From Thalassomonas actiniarum (GTDB taxonomy: Bacteria > Pseudomonadota > Gammaproteobacteria > Enterobacterales > Alteromonadaceae): a stretch of 64,000 nucleotides of DNA. Positions 14,798 to 60,883 of this stretch are shown here, in pieces. The stretch spans positions 1,922,001 through 1,986,000 of the forward strand of contig NZ_CP059735.1 in assembly GCF_000948975.2 (NCBI RefSeq), written 5' to 3'. The notes beneath the pieces were generated by a model that saw only the letters and a list, made by a program, of their open reading frames with translations, was not told where the DNA came from and made no database searches. The translations under genes and the position numbers were made by a program. How positions within the stretch are numbered: position 1 is the stretch's first letter; each line of letters begins with the position of its first letter.

Positions 14798-15475
14798 ATG
14801 ACAGTTCAAGCCAGTCTCACCATTTCGGATGCCGATAACCAAATAGTTGTTTTTCTCAATGGTGAAGAAATCTATAACAAAAGCACCATAGGGGAAAAAC
14901 CCCTGACCGATGTGACCGATCTCAGTGCCAAGTTAGTAGAAGGAGATAATACCTTGCTTATCCTCGGTATTAACTGGGGAGGGCCTTCAACCTTTAAAGG
15001 TTACCTGACGGTGAACGGCGCCGTTTCCCCTTTTCATAAAATGTATGATGCCATGGCACCCAGGGGGCTGTTGTGGAGTGATACTTTTGTTATCCAGGGG
15101 GAGTGTCCCAATGTGCCGGTGCTGAACCGGGTTACTTCCGGCAGTCACCCCGAGATCCCTGAAGAACTTATCGAAGGTTTTTCCGATGGCGCAGAATCTC
15201 TGGATTTTTCCGACAACTGTGAAGTGATACACTGGAATGGTTATACCTATTGGGCCTTTTCTTATATGGATAACCGGGAATCGTTAGCCATAGTTGCTTT
15301 TGACAATGATGGGCAGCTGGTGGGGAAAATAGAAAAAAAGGGCGCACATTTCCTCTGGCAGATATCCCTGGATCATGCCAGCAAAACGGTTACTTTTTAC
15401 GGGCAGCATAACCATCATATCACCATGGGCTGGGAAGAGCTTAAAGCCTGCTGCCAGGAAAGTATGCCGGCTTAG
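14798..15475 (+). CDS. Uncharacterised cytosolic protein, beta-rich
   Basis: This 225-residue protein is not assigned to a family. Residues 1-70 look like a beta-sandwich with a ligand-binding flavour (ADNQIVVFLNGEEIYNKS, EGDNTLLILGINWGGPSTF), reminiscent of galactose-binding-like modules. The second half (about 110-220) has Trp-, Tyr- and His-rich strands (YTYWAFSYMDNRESLAIVAF, TVTFYGQHNHHITMGWEEL). There is no signal peptide. The ATG follows an AAAAGGAG ribosome-binding site 8 bp upstream. It lies between two terminators and is transcribed alone. Confidence 0.75.
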   Translation: MTVQASLTISDADNQIVVFLNGEEIYNKSTIGEKPLTDVTDLSAKLVEGDNTLLILGINWGGPSTFKGYLTVNGAVSPFHKMYDAMAPRGLLWSDTFVIQGECPNVPVLNRVTSGSHPEIPEELIEGFSDGAESLDFSDNCEVIHWNGYTYWAFSYMDNRESLAIVAFDNDGQLVGKIEKKGAHFLWQISLDHASKTVTFYGQHNHHITMGWEELKACCQESMPA

Positions 15476-15520
15476 TTTTAAGACCGGCTATTAATACCTG
15501 CTTAAACCACATTTAATAAA

Positions 15521-15555
15521 AAGGCCAGACAGTCAAACTGTCTGGCCTTTTTATT
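15521..15555. terminator. Strong bidirectional intrinsic terminator
   Basis: A 13-bp perfect stem (AAGGCCAGACAGT, loop CAA, ACTGTCTGGCCTT) is flanked by T-rich DNA on both strands. It can end the upstream plus-strand gene and also the minus-strand M1 aminopeptidase transcript. The plus-strand U-tract runs straight into the first 51-bp repeat. Confidence 0.9.
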
Positions 15556-15690
15556 TACAGGACGTAAAGTATGTCGTGGGTTCAAGGATGAACAGAAACG
15601 ACGACTTACAGGACGTAAAGTATGTCGTGGGTTCAAGGATGAACAGAAACGACGATTTACAGGACGTAAAGCATGTTGTAGATTCTGGGA
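15555..15690. repeat. 51-bp tandem repeat array, locus A (2 full copies and a decayed third)
   Basis: Units begin at 15555, 15606 and 15657. The first two differ only in the last base (C or T); the third is intact for about 15 bases and then degrades. Each unit contains a two-stage hairpin: TGTCGT pairs with ACGACG, then GTTCA pairs with TGAAC around an AGGA loop. Each also holds ATGTCGTGGGTTCAAGGATG-A, a hexapeptide ORF (MSWVQG-stop). On the minus strand the array falls in the 3' untranslated region of the M1 aminopeptidase gene. A second array of the same family lies at 58901-59108. Confidence 0.95.
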
Positions 15691-15714
15691 TATTTATGCC
15701 ACTTGCTGTCCGTC

Positions 15715-18384
15715 CTATTGTTCCATTAACGTCAGGATTTTATTACAACGGTTGACCTGCTGATGTGTGGCTCTGATGCTTTTTAACGCCACAGGCTTCA
15801 TGTCCGTTGACGCTTTTACCAATTCCGACAGGAAGTTTTCATTATCGGCCGTACATTGCTTGGGCAGCATGATACGGGTGAAGGCGTTTAGCAGCCCGTA
15901 ATTAGCTTGCTCATTTAATGCCCGCATCTTGCTGATGATCGCCTCACGGTAAGGGTTTTTAAAGGCTTGTTGCTCTGCCGGAAACAGGCCGGCCATGATA
16001 TAACGCAAGCGGGCGAGTTTTAACTGCTCAGGATTATGGCGCAGAATATCGAACAATTTTGCCTTTTCTTCCGCTTGCGGGCGCTGTGCCCGGGCGTAGA
16101 AGCTGTAGTTGATACCTGTGTCGCTGTTATCCTGCTCAGTTTGCGCCGCCAGTCTTTGCCGGTAGTTGGCAAACTGGTAGCGGTTAAGTTGGGCGACCAG
16201 GGCCCAGCGCTTGTCCTGATCTATGGTCAGGCCGTCAAAACTGAGCTTGTGATCGAGAATATCCGCCAACATTGCCAGATGCTTGTCAGATCTGGCGACA
16301 GACACAAAGCGGCCATACCATAACTTTTGCGCATCTGAGCCGGCTTTGGCCCCGCTCAGTAATTGATAATAAACTTGCGCTACCTGATTGTGCTTGTCGC
16401 TGTAGTCGCGGCGCTGCTGATAGGTGAGCATATCCAGGTAATGCAGCGCCGAGGTTAAGCTGGAGGCAATTTTCCTGCTGACATTATGGTCTTGCTCCCC
16501 CCGGATATTTTTCAGGGCAAAGTCGACAAAATCTGCCGCCGAGAGTCTGGCATCGCGGACACTGTCAAACAGGCTTTGCCATAACATGATGCGCATGGTG
16601 GCATTGTCCAGGGCATTAATATGCTGCTTGACGGCAGTTAAAGACATGGGATCCAGGTTGACTTTGACATAACCCCAGTCTCCTTCGTTGGGATAAACCA
16701 GATCCGGGCAGGTTTTTCCTATGGCATCGTCTACTGAAGTGGACTTGCCCTTATAGGTAATGGCGATTTTATCGGTAAGCGCCATGCTGTTTTGCCGATA
16801 GTTATATAAACCGACCTGTACCCTTTGTTCACGCAGGGTCGGGTAGGATTTAGGGGCAGTTTGTTTAAGGGTAAAGGAGGAAACTTTGCCGTTTTCACAC
16901 TGGTAGCTGGCTTCTATGGTGTTTAATCCCGGCTGGTATAACCAATCCTGGGTCCACTGGCTTAAGTCTTTGCCGGCAGCCTTACCTAATTCAGTCATAA
17001 AATCATCGAGTTCGGTATTTTTATAGGCAAATTTTTTCAGGTAGTTACTGACACCGATGCGGAATTCGTCTTCACCCAGATAATGGTGAACCTGCTTAAG
17101 CACGGCAGCGCCTTTGCCGTAGGTGATACCGTCAAAGTTGGTCATGGCATCGCCCGTGGTCGGCACCTCAAGTTCAATGGCATGGGTATTGACAGAATCA
17201 TCGCTGCGATAGGCCCATTGCTTCATGCCGGTGTAAAAATAATCCCAGGTATTGGTAAAGTCACTGGCCTGGTCTATGGCCAGGTTAGCCATATAGGTGG
17301 CAAAACTTTCATTCAGCCATAAACCGTTCCACCATCTCATGGTAACCAGGTCGCCGAACCACATATGGGCCATTTCATGGGCTATGGTATTGGCCAGGTT
17401 CATGCGTGCCCGGGTCGATTTTTCGCCGCGGCTGACATAGGACTCGGTGAAGGTGACCGCGGCAACATTTTCCATGGCGCCGGAATTAAAGTCCGGGGCT
17501 ATGATTTGATCATATTTGCCAAAGGGATAGCGGATATCAAAATAGTCATTGAAAAATTTGAAGCTTTGTTTGGTTGGAGTAAACCAGTCGTCTGTTTTCA
17601 CATTTTCCGCCAGGCTTTGGCGGGCAAACAGCCGCAGCGGGATATCTTCGAACTTATCTTCCCAGACCGCATAGTTGCCGGCATGTAAGGCAAAAACATA
17701 AGAAGATATTTTCGCCGATATTGGGAAATACCAGTGGTTAAATTCCCCTTCGGTTTTTATCTCGCTCTCCCGGGTCGTGGAAATTACCTGCCAGTGTCTG
17801 GGGGCGATGACGTCCAGGGTATAACGGGCTTTGAGATCCGGCTGGTCGAAATGGGGAAACAGGCGGTTGGCGTCATAAGGTTCAAAATCGGTATATAAAT
17901 AGACTTCTTTATTTTTGGGATCAACAAAGCGGTGGAAACCCGAGCCGTCGGTGGAATATTTGCGGGAATAATCAATGACCAGGGTATTTTGGCCGTTGAC
18001 CAGCTGATGCTGGGGGATGGTGATAAACCATTTGTCGAATTTAAAGGTCGCCGCCTGGCCGTTAATGGTAACTGATGTTATCTCGCCTTCTTCAAAGTCT
18101 ATGGTCAGTGGCAGGTTATCGCTTTTATCCAGGTCAAAGGTGATTTTATTGCTGCCGCTAAAAGACTCGCTGGTCTGGTCTATTTTCAAGGATAACCGGT
18201 AATTGAGATTGCTGATCTGGGCCGATCTTTGTTTGGCATATTCGCCGGATAAAAATTCGCTGTTATCCCGCAGCTTGCCTGCGCCAAGTCCGTCAGGACC
18301 AGAGCTGCAACTGCTTAAAGCAAGGGCTGAGCTTAATGCGCTTGCGGCTAGCCACCGGCACCTTCCTGGCTTAAAAATCGCCAT
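15715..18384 (-). CDS. M1-family aminopeptidase, lipoprotein
   Basis: Zinc aminopeptidase that removes N-terminal residues from peptides; here probably anchored in the envelope, since the N-terminus carries a lipobox (LALSSC, Cys 26). The 889-residue protein has the substrate-binding GAMEN motif (302-306) and the zinc site HEMAH (336-340) with E359 in WLNES. The beta-saddle precedes this (about 50-235) and an ERAP1-like helical C-terminal domain follows. Cytosolic PepN lacks the lipid signal, so this is a periplasmic or surface relative. It is transcribed leftward towards the locus A repeats and the shared terminator. Confidence 0.94.
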   Translation of the reverse strand: MAIFKPGRCRWLAASALSSALALSSCSSGPDGLGAGKLRDNSEFLSGEYAKQRSAQISNLNYRLSLKIDQTSESFSGSNKITFDLDKSDNLPLTIDFEEGEITSVTINGQAATFKFDKWFITIPQHQLVNGQNTLVIDYSRKYSTDGSGFHRFVDPKNKEVYLYTDFEPYDANRLFPHFDQPDLKARYTLDVIAPRHWQVISTTRESEIKTEGEFNHWYFPISAKISSYVFALHAGNYAVWEDKFEDIPLRLFARQSLAENVKTDDWFTPTKQSFKFFNDYFDIRYPFGKYDQIIAPDFNSGAMENVAAVTFTESYVSRGEKSTRARMNLANTIAHEMAHMWFGDLVTMRWWNGLWLNESFATYMANLAIDQASDFTNTWDYFYTGMKQWAYRSDDSVNTHAIELEVPTTGDAMTNFDGITYGKGAAVLKQVHHYLGEDEFRIGVSNYLKKFAYKNTELDDFMTELGKAAGKDLSQWTQDWLYQPGLNTIEASYQCENGKVSSFTLKQTAPKSYPTLREQRVQVGLYNYRQNSMALTDKIAITYKGKSTSVDDAIGKTCPDLVYPNEGDWGYVKVNLDPMSLTAVKQHINALDNATMRIMLWQSLFDSVRDARLSAADFVDFALKNIRGEQDHNVSRKIASSLTSALHYLDMLTYQQRRDYSDKHNQVAQVYYQLLSGAKAGSDAQKLWYGRFVSVARSDKHLAMLADILDHKLSFDGLTIDQDKRWALVAQLNRYQFANYRQRLAAQTEQDNSDTGINYSFYARAQRPQAEEKAKLFDILRHNPEQLKLARLRYIMAGLFPAEQQAFKNPYREAIISKMRALNEQANYGLLNAFTRIMLPKQCTADNENFLSELVKASTDMKPVALKSIRATHQQVNRCNKILTLMEQ

Positions 18385-58104: not shown

Positions 58105-58803
58105 ATGAAAAAAAGTTTGTTAGCACTAACAACTGCCGGTTTGCTGGCTGTATCCGGCGCAGCCAATGCTGATTGGTCTGCCACGGTAAACCTTGCTTCT
58201 GACTACACCTTTAACGGTGTCAGCCAGACCGATAGTGATCCGGCCTTACAAGCGAGCCTGGACTACAGCCGCGACAACGGTTTTTATGCCGGTACCTGGG
58301 CGTCAAATGTCGATTTTGGTGAGGATACCGATACCGAATGGGATTTTTATGTCGGTAAATATTACCAGTTAGATGAGAAATTCTCTCTTGATGCCGGTAT
58401 TGCCTATTACACCTATCACGGCGCTTCTCACTCGGATGACTACAACTATCCGGAAGCCTATGCCAAATTTGGTTATGCCTCTGAGCTGGGTCAAACAGAA
58501 ATGAACTTCTGGTACAGCTGGGATTACTTCGGACTGGATGTTGATCACTATATCGCTATGGTCGGCCATACTTTCACGGTAGCCGAAGGCCATGATATCC
58601 GCATCAGCTTCGACCGCTCTTTATCTGATGATGAAAACAAATGGTCCTGGGACGGTAAAAACGGCTACAACCACTACCGTTTGGAATACCTGACCAGCTA
58701 TAAAGGTTTTGACTTTAACTTGGCGCTTGAAGATACCAATATGGATATCGACACAGCTGACAGCCGGGTAGTGTTTTCTGTATCACGTACCTTTGGTTTA
58801 TAA
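58105..58803 (+). CDS. TorF family putative porin
   Basis: A 232-residue outer-membrane beta-barrel. A standard signal peptide ends AANA (about residue 22). The mature sequence, DWSATVNLASDYTFNGVSQT and then DPALQASLDYS, is the signature of the TorF-like porin family (TIGR02001), and the C-terminus is VFSVSRTFGL, a typical barrel end. It follows the BCCT transporter by 139 bp; a role in passing choline or related osmolytes through the outer membrane is a reasonable inference only. Confidence 0.9.
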   Translation: MKKSLLALTTAGLLAVSGAANADWSATVNLASDYTFNGVSQTDSDPALQASLDYSRDNGFYAGTWASNVDFGEDTDTEWDFYVGKYYQLDEKFSLDAGIAYYTYHGASHSDDYNYPEAYAKFGYASELGQTEMNFWYSWDYFGLDVDHYIAMVGHTFTVAEGHDIRISFDRSLSDDENKWSWDGKNGYNHYRLEYLTSYKGFDFNLALEDTNMDIDTADSRVVFSVSRTFGL

Positions 58804-58870
58804 TTCGTTTCATAAATCAAGCTACTAAGCGATAACGGGCAACAGCGTACAGCCAGTCCGTTATCAGATA

Positions 58871-58900
58871 AAATCCAGCGACTATTCGCTGGATTTTTAT
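58871..58900 (+). terminator. Terminator after the porin gene
   Basis: AAATCCAGCG (58871-58880) pairs with CGCTGGATTT (58887-58896) across ACTATT; the T-run leads directly into the second 51-bp repeat array. Confidence 0.85.
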
Positions 58901-59108
58901 TTACAGGAGGTAATGTATGTCATGGTTTCAAGGATGAAAAGGAATGACAATTTACAGGAGGTAATGTATGTCATGGTTTCAAGGATGAAAAGGAATGACA
59001 ATTTACAGGAGGTAATGTATGTCATGGTTTCAAGGATGAAAAGGAATGACAATTTACAGGAGGTAATGTATGTCATGGTTTCAAGGACGAAAAGGAATGA
59101 CAATTTAC
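58901..59108 (+). repeat. 51-bp tandem repeat array, locus B (4 copies)
   Basis: Four units start at 58901, 58952, 59003 and 59054, identical except for one T-to-C change in the last. They share the plan and about 75 percent identity of the units at 15555. Each forms the hairpin TGTCAT with ATGACA, then TTTCA with TGAAA around an AGGA loop. Each also has AGGAGG six bases before ATGTCATGGTTTCAAGGATG-A (MSWFQG-stop). The last copy loses the stop. Since 51 is divisible by three, long frames exist on both strands as by-products (17-residue repeats). Confidence 0.97.
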
Positions 59109-59227: not shown

Positions 59228-60883
59228 ATGAAGAAATATGCTTACCTGTTCACGGCATTTTCCGCATGCGCTCTGGCATTAGCGGGCTGCGGTGATAATA
59301 CCCGTACCGATACACCGTCAGCCACGGCCGCTGACACGGAAAAAAATCATCAAAGTGATGGTATTTCCTTTAACCTGGCTAATGTCCACCGCGACATCAA
59401 AACGCTGGCGTCAGATGAATTTGGCGGCCGCGGTCCGTTATCCGAGGGGGAAACCTTAACCACAGGTTATCTGGCAAAAGCTTATCAGCAGGCAGGTCTG
59501 GCACCGGGGGCGGGGGAGAGTTATCTGCAGCAGGTGCCGATGGCAAAACTGACGCCGAGTCAGGATATGCTATTGCAGCTGGGGGATTTGCAATTTGTGG
59601 CAGGTAAAGATTTTACCGCCCGCACCAAGCAGATAAAACCCCGGATTAATTTAAAGGACTCGGAGCTGGTGTTTGTCGGTTACGGCATCAATGCCCCCGA
59701 ATACCAGTGGAATGACTATGCCGGTGTCGATGTCAAAGGGAAAACTGTGGTGATGCTGGTTAATGATCCCGGTTTTGCCACCCAGGATGACAAGCTCTTT
59801 ACCGGCAATGCCATGACCTATTACGGCCGCTGGACCTATAAATATGAAGAAGCCGCCCGGCAGGGGGCCAGTGCGGTATTTATCGTCCATGAAACCGATG
59901 CCGCCGGTTATCCCTGGGGGGTTGTGGAAAGTTCAAATACCGGCAGTAAATTTACTCTGGTGGATGATAATAACAATAGCGAAATGTTGCCTGTGATGGG
60001 CTGGCTGCAGTTGGCGGCGACCGAACAGTTATTTGCCGGGGCAGGCATGGACTACCAGGCCTTAAAGGCCAAGGCAAAAATGCGCGGCTTTAAAGCTGTG
60101 CCGCTGGCGTTACAGGCCAATTTAACCTTAAACAGTAAAATAGAACAGGCGGCCTCGGATAATGTAGTGGCGCTTTTGCCCGGGACCGAACTGGCGGATG
60201 AATATGTAGTGATCAGCGCTCACTGGGATCATCTGGGCATCAAGCAAACCCCGAAGGGCCCTAAAATTCATAACGGCGCAGTGGATAATGCCTCCGGCAC
60301 CGCGGCAACCCTGGAGCTGGCGCGTACCTTAATGGCACGTTCAAAAGTTTCTCCGTTTAAACGCTCCTTGCTGTTTGTTAATTTTACCGCCGAAGAAACC
60401 GGTTTGATCGGCTCTGAGTTATTTGCCGCAGGCGGCCTCTACCCGAGCAAACAGCTGGTAGCGGTACTCAATATTGACGGCATGAACCCGTCAGACAGCG
60501 TTGATTATATCTTGCAATACGGGCAAGGTATGTCTGAGATGGAGCAGTACTTAAGTGAGGCGGCGAAAGCCCAGGGGCGTAAGGTGAAGATGGATCCCAG
60601 GCCGCAGAACGGCCTGTTTTTCCGCTCGGATCATTTCTCCCTGGCTAAAGAGGGTGTGCCCGGTTTGCTCTTTATGAGTTTGGGGGATACCGACCCTGAG
60701 TACATCAGCCATAAATACCATAAGGAAGCCGATGATTATTCGCCCGACTGGTCCCTTGGCGGGGTTGAGCAGGACATGGCGTTATTACAAGCTATCGCCT
60801 TAAAACTGGCCAATAGCGATCACTGGCCGAAGTGGCTGGCGGACTCAGATTTTAAGAAGCGCCGGGCGCTTGATGGCCGTTAG
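59228..60883 (+). CDS. M28-family metallopeptidase, lipoprotein
   Basis: A 551-residue exported zinc aminopeptidase-like enzyme. The signal peptide ends with a lipobox, ALALAGC (Cys near 20). A PA-like insert precedes the catalytic domain. Zinc ligands and catalytic residues are visible in SAHWDHLG, NGAVDNASGTAA, FTAEETGLIGSE, LNIDGMN and SDHFSLAKEGVP. Such enzymes remove N-terminal residues or glutamyl groups from peptides in the envelope. A clear promoter lies between the repeat array and this gene. It converges on the penicillin-acylase-family gene and is followed by a strong terminator. Confidence 0.93.
   Translation: MKKYAYLFTAFSACALALAGCGDNTRTDTPSATAADTEKNHQSDGISFNLANVHRDIKTLASDEFGGRGPLSEGETLTTGYLAKAYQQAGLAPGAGESYLQQVPMAKLTPSQDMLLQLGDLQFVAGKDFTARTKQIKPRINLKDSELVFVGYGINAPEYQWNDYAGVDVKGKTVVMLVNDPGFATQDDKLFTGNAMTYYGRWTYKYEEAARQGASAVFIVHETDAAGYPWGVVESSNTGSKFTLVDDNNNSEMLPVMGWLQLAATEQLFAGAGMDYQALKAKAKMRGFKAVPLALQANLTLNSKIEQAASDNVVALLPGTELADEYVVISAHWDHLGIKQTPKGPKIHNGAVDNASGTAATLELARTLMARSKVSPFKRSLLFVNFTAEETGLIGSELFAAGGLYPSKQLVAVLNIDGMNPSDSVDYILQYGQGMSEMEQYLSEAAKAQGRKVKMDPRPQNGLFFRSDHFSLAKEGVPGLLFMSLGDTDPEYISHKYHKEADDYSPDWSLGGVEQDMALLQAIALKLANSDHWPKWLADSDFKKRRALDGR

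Follow-up and report, generated by a model that had tools for sequence, protein, structure and literature searches.

Related hairpin repeats

Among described systems, the CsrB/CsrC/RsmZ RNAs (RF00018) share with the arrays reported here repeated hairpins, A(N)GGAX loops, CAGGAUG repeats and short stems. They differ in their setting, as each is a free sRNA gene with a promoter and its own terminator, whereas the arrays lie at 52 scattered loci behind the terminators of other genes. Published sites of high affinity for Csr/Rsm follow the consensus ANGGAX, a hexaloop placed immediately on a stem, with N and X variable and N sometimes absent (PMC4005645). The CsrA site obtained by SELEX is RUACARGGAUGU, and CsrA bridging works at 10–63 nt and best above 18 nt (both PMC7652899). 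The Csr RNAs of Pseudoalteromonas are free sRNAs, unlike the arrays (PMC11882849).

REP/BIME elements with TnpAREP (RAYT) resemble our units as small, intergenic, high-copy hairpins with an imperfect stem that lie 3' of genes and have an unpaired tetranucleotide 5' of a hairpin. Unlike these elements, the units comprise two hairpins each, lack the GTAG tag, are tightly anchored to terminators and form tandem direct arrays. Group IIC introns insert 3' of terminator hairpins, whereas our units are 51 bp long and without a reverse transcriptase (RT). The CGTC-tagged REPs, as described in an excerpt of PMC3733652, recall the many units of the host genome that end in GACG, which is CGTC on the other strand; however, this tag is not kept outside the host genome, the fold is another one and the units are joined head-to-tail, not as head-head dimers. 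The TAACTGA repeats of Beggiatoaceae, as far as an excerpt of PMC4679880 describes them, are a different repeat.

Two arrays of hairpin pairs in the window

We analysed a stretch of 64,000 nucleotides of the Thalassomonas actiniarum genome, here called the window. It contains two arrays of 51-bp units, which Tandem Repeats Finder places at 58899–59108 (period 51, 4.1 copies, 99% matches) and 15555–15676 (period 51, 2.4 copies, 97%). Matches below refer to R1, a covariance model made from 11 units of eight host-genome loci.

58105–58803, plus strand: gene upstream of the first array, Gcw_chp protein of unknown function (PF09694)
58870–58898, plus strand: intrinsic terminator (A-tract, hairpin, T-tract) 3' of gene 58105–58803, identified from the sequence
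58900–59103, plus strand: array of four 51-bp units (58900–58950, 58951–59001, 59002–59052, 59053–59103); R1 matches at genome positions 1980900–1981103
58901–58913, plus strand: hairpin 1 of unit 1 (TTAC, loop AGGAG of the type AGGAX, GTAA); stem covaries in 98 rows
58918–58949, plus strand: hairpin 2 of unit 1, from sequence and covariation
59104–59108, plus strand: TTTAC, the beginning of another unit at the terminal end of the array, from the sequence
59228–60883, plus strand: downstream gene, M28-family peptidase (PF04389)
14798–15475, plus strand: gene upstream of the second array (ORF), without a Pfam match at E ≤ 0.001
15520–15552, plus strand: intrinsic terminator 3' of gene 14798–15475, identified from the sequence
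15554–15655, plus strand: second array, two intact 51-bp units (15554–15604, 15605–15655)
15656–15702, plus strand: decayed third unit of the second array; R1 match of 20.2 bits (L007:1604-1650)
15715–18384, minus strand: convergent gene downstream of the second array, M1 aminopeptidase (PF01433)

The four-unit array starts one base past its terminator. An initial annotation of this DNA had reported the units at both loci correctly but had overlooked the terminator before each array. Elsewhere in the window, a 26-bp direct repeat (1.9 copies) occupies positions 509–558.

Unit anatomy and covariation

Each 51-bp unit forms two hairpins on the gene-sense strand. The general plan of hairpin 1 is TTAC-AGGAN-GTAA, and that of hairpin 2 is an outer stem TGTCRT/AYGACR, an internal loop of GG versus AGRA, an inner stem and a loop ANGGAT. 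In hairpin 2 of unit 1 these elements read TGTCAT/ATGACA, GG versus AGGA, TTTC/GAAA and the hexaloop AAGGAT (ANGGAX), and 23 nt separate the two GGA of a unit in the window. The initial annotation had described a single hairpin, which is our hairpin 2 and stands, whereas hairpin 1 was overlooked. The pairs of its inner stem were likewise right, except that the topmost A-T is unpaired in 20 of 107 distinct rows and is therefore better read as part of the ANGGAX hexaloop. Its coordinates and sequence were accurate, as were the differences that it named between the loci: 15576G-15599C corresponds to 58922A-58945T, 15580G-15593C to 58926T-58939A, and a wobble pair of the outer stem, T-G, becomes T-A.

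Among the loci the repeat period ranges from 49 to 53, and conservation is mainly found in the loops, the spacer GTAT(G) and the AGRA strand, while most paired positions are variable. The loops hardly deviate from A(N)GGAX, with GGA present in loop 1 of 88–90 and in loop 2 of 95–96 of the 98 host-genome rows; their positions N and X vary, and the stems covary. By eye, the stem of hairpin 1 occurs as TTAC, ATAC, GTAC, GTTC, ATTC and GCTC, each with its complement. The GTAT(G) between the hairpins is conserved and unpaired. Many host-genome units end in GACG, and those elsewhere mostly in GGCG.

Paired changes are far more frequent than in shuffled alignments. Among the 11 units of eight host-genome loci, both sides of five pairs have changed, which none of 500 shuffles reached; the number of further pair types in this set was ordinary (66/500 shuffles). 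The 98 distinct host-genome rows contain 346 doubly changed cells, compared with 108 in shuffles (0/500 reached it), and 93.4% of their cells are paired versus 69.7% in shuffles. With other genomes included, 107 distinct rows contain 363 such cells versus 105 (0/500 shuffles); the 98-row and 107-row alignments were fitted to the structure, so that these figures are biased towards it, and slid controls were 21–49% paired. The sense strand folds better than its complement in 96 of the 107 rows with RNA parameters and in 99 with DNA parameters. Covariation in the 11-, 98- and 107-row sets supports the initial suggestion of selection on a folded form, either RNA or single-stranded DNA.

A coding role for the repeats is barely credible. 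The window units do present a Shine–Dalgarno-like AGGAGG followed by ATG, and the 51-bp spacing, divisible by three, would give 17 codons and thereby a repeated short peptide, which reads MSWFQG in the window. Yet the period varies between 49 and 53 among loci, the G of the ATG is kept in 65 of the 98 host-genome rows and changes track base pairing, so that period and codon pattern both disfavour this reading.

Copy number and distribution across genomes

A plain DNA search of the host genome returned 11 matches, whereas R1 found at least 103 units at 52 loci at E ≤ 0.01, with 150 of 3,487 candidates scored. This agrees with the dozens of loci that the initial annotation had expected of a covariance model; neither of the outcomes that would have spoken against it, stem changes that are not compensatory throughout the genome or a lack of further copies, occurred. 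All of these units are on the 6.56-Mb contig and none among them is on the second contig, which makes up about one-eighth of the genome. In the sister genome G001, units do occur on the second contig. Two host loci found later, 2654281 (plus strand, L131:1718-1818) and 6354083 (plus strand), are outside the 52.

Beyond the host, R1 matched at least 17 of 59 relatives (E ≤ 1e-3) and at least 28 of 394 genomes from the order (1e-4). A second model, R2, matched at least 54 of the 369 genomes sampled in the class (1e-5) and at least 20 of 398 of the phylum (1e-6), ten of the latter belonging to one family outside the class. These unit and genome counts, the host included, are lower bounds, as 150, 100 or 14–16 candidates were scored per genome. 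A similar array is present in Thalassomonas sp. RHCl1 (L278). A class-type array matched nothing when searched against plasmids, phages and E. coli genomes, nor did the window array match any of the plasmids. The initial annotation knew of no described family of this kind, and this holds within our searches: none of the 12 matches listed in an Rfam scan of eight host loci (E up to 1) reaches its gathering score, sequence strings of the unit gave no hit in open-licence papers, and no description of the units turned up among the open-licence papers listed on repeats with terminators, on CsrA and repeats, on mobile elements next to terminators or on transposition at the lagging strand.

Position behind terminators

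At 42 of the 52 host loci the array starts within 12 nt of the T-tract of an intrinsic terminator. In a control sample of 400 kb, this applies to 248 of the 23,552 intergenic bases that lie 3' of a plus-strand gene. In the remaining ten, a T-tract lies 47–61 nt upstream (seven loci) or 101 nt upstream (one locus), or was undetected (two loci). The terminators themselves differ from locus to locus. The preceding gene points in the same direction as the array at 48/52 loci, and 29/52 arrays lie in convergent gene pairs. The same, strict terminator test was passed by 28 of 44 loci inspected in the named genomes (of 50 R1-matched loci, leaving out the six weakest) and by 14 of 29 inspected in relatives within the order (of 42 sources). 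The typical junction outside the host falls between TTTTTTA and TGTACAGGATGTACGGTATGCCGCGG, with examples in Nitrincola, Amphritea, Sedimenticola, Dasania and Neptunomonas.

Contexts other than terminators are found in some members of the order and in a family of another class. Nine units from this other class have, by eye, no terminator in their context, and at seven of the nine a sense frame that is open for 100 aa or more starts within 120 nt downstream, some of these starts being weak; for comparison, 8/52 host loci have such a frame within 150 nt downstream. These seven units are placed as a leader would be, before open frames. L388–L395 hold lone other-class units whose spacer is AATG; they are flanked by sequence resembling CTCTGCGT..CTGTGA and by GGTGAAA, and several are just ahead of a start codon, in a context unlike terminators. 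In the order members L202, L205, L209, L051, L203 and L204, the unit is embedded in longer sequence that is shared to its left and right and may be another repeat, an sRNA gene or a single orthologous site.

Composite or end modules were also observed, in L117, L128, L138 and L148 and at the downstream ends of L229, L223, L274, L279 and L216. These consist of hairpin 1 followed by a hairpin with GCTCC in its loop (GCTCCTGC or GCTCCCGGC), and in the host genome an inverted hairpin 1 with loop CATCC follows. In the main unit, GGAGC and GGATG are the complements of the loops GCTCC and CATCC.

The location past terminators, the 29 convergent pairs and the stable folds could indicate a transcript-end or back-up termination element that blocks read-through into convergent genes or shields 3' ends, without CsrA. 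We consider this quite improbable. It leaves the fixed GGA loops unexplained, the stems are short with internal loops, no regular T-tract is seen by eye behind the hairpins, and the arrays lie beyond the terminator, not before it.

Orthologous sites in sister species

For 17 host loci with an orthologous stretch in the sister species G003, an array was present in 11, decayed in two and absent in four, as judged by eye; the G003 stretches were chosen partly at known arrays, which favours presence in this count. Copy number varies between orthologous arrays, and units are alike within one array. At the 58.9-kb locus a host T-A pair is C-G in G002 and G003, a double difference of the kind that the initial annotation had expected to recur in further copies, and at the 15.6-kb locus a host G-C is A-T in G003. 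When 16 G003 arrays were ranked by closeness to a host unit, the orthologue came first in six of 11 tests and took second place in three. As the orthologue often ranks first, many sites are old and inherited. In 6 of the 11 tests another host locus was as close to the host unit as the G003 orthologue, or closer; exchange between loci is therefore possible, and a double difference between orthologues need not mean two substitutions in place. At L166:16078-17255, the G003 site of host locus 1408061, the part examined contains no array; it has some 1.1 kb of additional sequence, which may be an insertion sequence.

Orientation relative to replication

As a gammaproteobacterial dif pattern had no match in the host (G000), the origin and terminus were set from the first ORF of the contig, which we take to be dnaA from the start of its protein, at base 1, and from the GC skew, which flips between 3.17 and 3.30 Mb. 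The same pattern had no match in G001, G003 and G010 and one in G008. Host arrays are co-directional with replication at 43/52 loci (24/28 and 19/24), compared with 168/307 sampled genes (p=3e-5); a gene sample at 3.30 Mb was tallied with the right half, and its seven genes each way leave 168/307 unchanged. Of the two loci found later, 2654281 is co-directional and 6354083 anti-directional. The bias is retained in convergent pairs, where one gene faces each way: 24/29 arrays are co-directional (p=0.0005), or 22/28 with a 100-aa ORF cut (p=0.004). Terminators show no sign of being its source in a small control of 39 sampled convergent pairs, where they were found on the co-directional strand only in two, on the other only in two, on both in nine and on neither in 26. 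Higher expression of leading-strand genes could contribute. In G003, with the origin assumed at base 1 and the terminus at mid-contig, 37/43 loci are co-directional. A hand count in the single-contig genomes G008, G010 and G447 (loci at E ≤ 1e-4, placed by GC skew) gave 15/17 placeable loci co-directional, two opposite and two more unplaced; rows from G015, G032, G387, G538 and G545, for which no skew was taken, are outside the polarity count.

Orientation also bears on whether RNA or single-stranded DNA is the selected form. Pairs of the G-U type outnumber A-C mismatches 50 to 14 at co-directional loci, whereas they stand at 1 versus 3 at anti-directional loci (15 rows). In a separate set of units (A3), collected with a pattern containing GTATG and thus biased towards it, G-U versus A-C was 8 versus 11 among the matches listed, with the two closing pairs excluded. 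As the G-U excess is limited to co-directional loci, it may be a strand mutation bias, and the G-U counts do not favour RNA.

The orientations in the host, in its convergent pairs and in the other genomes, together with the junction exactly past the T-tract, are points in favour of a REP-like miniature mobile element. Here, a single-strand-specific nuclease or recombinase would recognise the DNA hairpins on the lagging-strand template, the loops would be protein contacts, and units would be joined 3' of a terminator or of a previous unit, giving tandem arrays in an orientation fixed by the fork. Polarity and exact junction fit such single-strand DNA spread better than they fit CsrA binding. 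The TTAC start and its GTAA partner resemble the target and guide of IS608. Like REPs, the units are high-copy intergenic palindromes mostly downstream of genes, and copying between loci would explain the six tests in which another host locus was equally close or closer. According to excerpts of PMC6006769 and PMC8266576, IS608 and ISDra2 target the lagging-strand template and REPs have a tetranucleotide guide 5' of the hairpin.

The enzymes point the other way for part of the carriers. A Y1 transposase (PF01797) was found in 6 of 11 carriers tested (G001, G002, G004, G006, G053 and G056), not sorted into TnpAREP or IS200, and had no match in the other five (host, G003, G008, G010 and G027); it is present in three of five non-carriers tested. 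Spread by IS200/IS605 or RAYT was rejected on these grounds. Of nine carriers searched for an RT (RVT_1), as group IIC introns would require, five gave no match (G002, G008, G027, G053 and G447) and four did, the host included. No mobilising enzyme of these two kinds was thus common to all carriers tested. Neither a GTAG nor a CGTC tag was found, the unpaired neighbour being mostly GTAT(G) and the last bases ranging from GACG to GGCG. The blank plasmid and phage searches and the many inherited, not newly copied, sites also count against this element, which we regard as the chief alternative to CsrA binding but as rather unlikely.

The lack of a common enzyme and the decayed copies at some sites would also suit neutral relics of an extinct element, whose structure would persist only through earlier copying and because units of one array homogenise each other; replacement by a unit from another locus could produce the double differences between orthologues. 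Those same double differences, and the strong covariation across many families, make such relics highly unlikely.

Similarity to CsrA/RsmA binding sites

Counting stems of 3 bp or more, both hairpins bear an A(N)GGAX loop on their stem in 85 of the 107 rows, only hairpin 2 does in 14, only hairpin 1 in seven and neither in one (both hairpins in 67 of the 98 host rows); the background of such loops is 0.23 per kb of strand. The units thus contain multiple A(N)GGAX loops on stems, as do CsrB and RsmZ. Searching the host with RF00018 (cut-off 71 bits) gave three CsrB-like candidates of 66.2, 57.0 and 31.7 bits:

G000:C1:4532410-4532744 (L338): CsrB-like candidate
G000:C2:402479-402827 (L339): CsrB-like candidate, on the second contig
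G000:C1:4757320-4757558 (L340): CsrB-like candidate

The best candidate contains 19 GGA and six CAGGANG. In L338, the stretch with 19 GGA has, by eye, a terminator-like hairpin at its end. Four matches of 20.7–24.1 bits come next, all of which overlap arrays, and a final one of 13.2 bits (E=0.57) adjoins an array; in the eight-locus Rfam scan, arrays scored 25.9 and 23.3 bits with RF00018. In both searches the arrays are below the gathering cut-off of 71 bits.

As the loops fit the A(N)GGAX rule and sit on stems, and as matches of the CsrB search overlap arrays, the most likely reading, to which we give somewhat less than even chances, is that the arrays are terminator-anchored Csr/Rsm-type RNA hairpins bound by CsrA/RsmA in read-through RNA. 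RNA polymerase passing the upstream terminator would transcribe the array, each unit would fold on the gene-sense strand into two stem-loops that each expose an A(N)GGAX loop, and the transcript would bind CsrA/RsmA dimers with two loops per unit. The outcome may be either a scattered CsrA decoy or a tag that sets the fate of the read-through RNA. The fork orientation could arise because structured read-through RNA is perhaps tolerated co-directionally, or through spread via lagging-strand DNA.

Several points stand against CsrA binding. An array past a terminator should be transcribed by read-through only, replication polarity is not predicted, and anti-directional loci and A3 do not show the surplus of G-U pairs that RNA should have. 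We know of no role of the conserved unpaired GTAT(G) in CsrA binding. The arrays miss the CsrB gathering score. Loop 1 mostly lacks N, and the absence of this N is among the changes that cut RsmE affinity 10- to 1000-fold in a published study. CsrA binding and mobility may also be one story, that of a spread element whose hairpins serve CsrA. In an improbable variant, the arrays would form a genome-wide, distributed CsrA/RsmA buffer, in which the total read-through of the cell, reflecting its state of transcription and termination, would set the level of free CsrA and the arrays are co-directional because they come from lagging-strand hairpin DNA or are tolerated only with it.

The units constitute a hairpin family that at least 54 of 369 genomes sampled from the class possess, often at the end of a T-tract and mostly oriented with replication in the four genera tested, which reaches no Rfam threshold and for which we found no open-licence description. 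If the arrays bind CsrA, they would be a second, scattered Csr arm in marine bacteria besides the CsrB-type RNAs. If they are a DNA element, they would represent a novel way of placing hairpins behind terminators.
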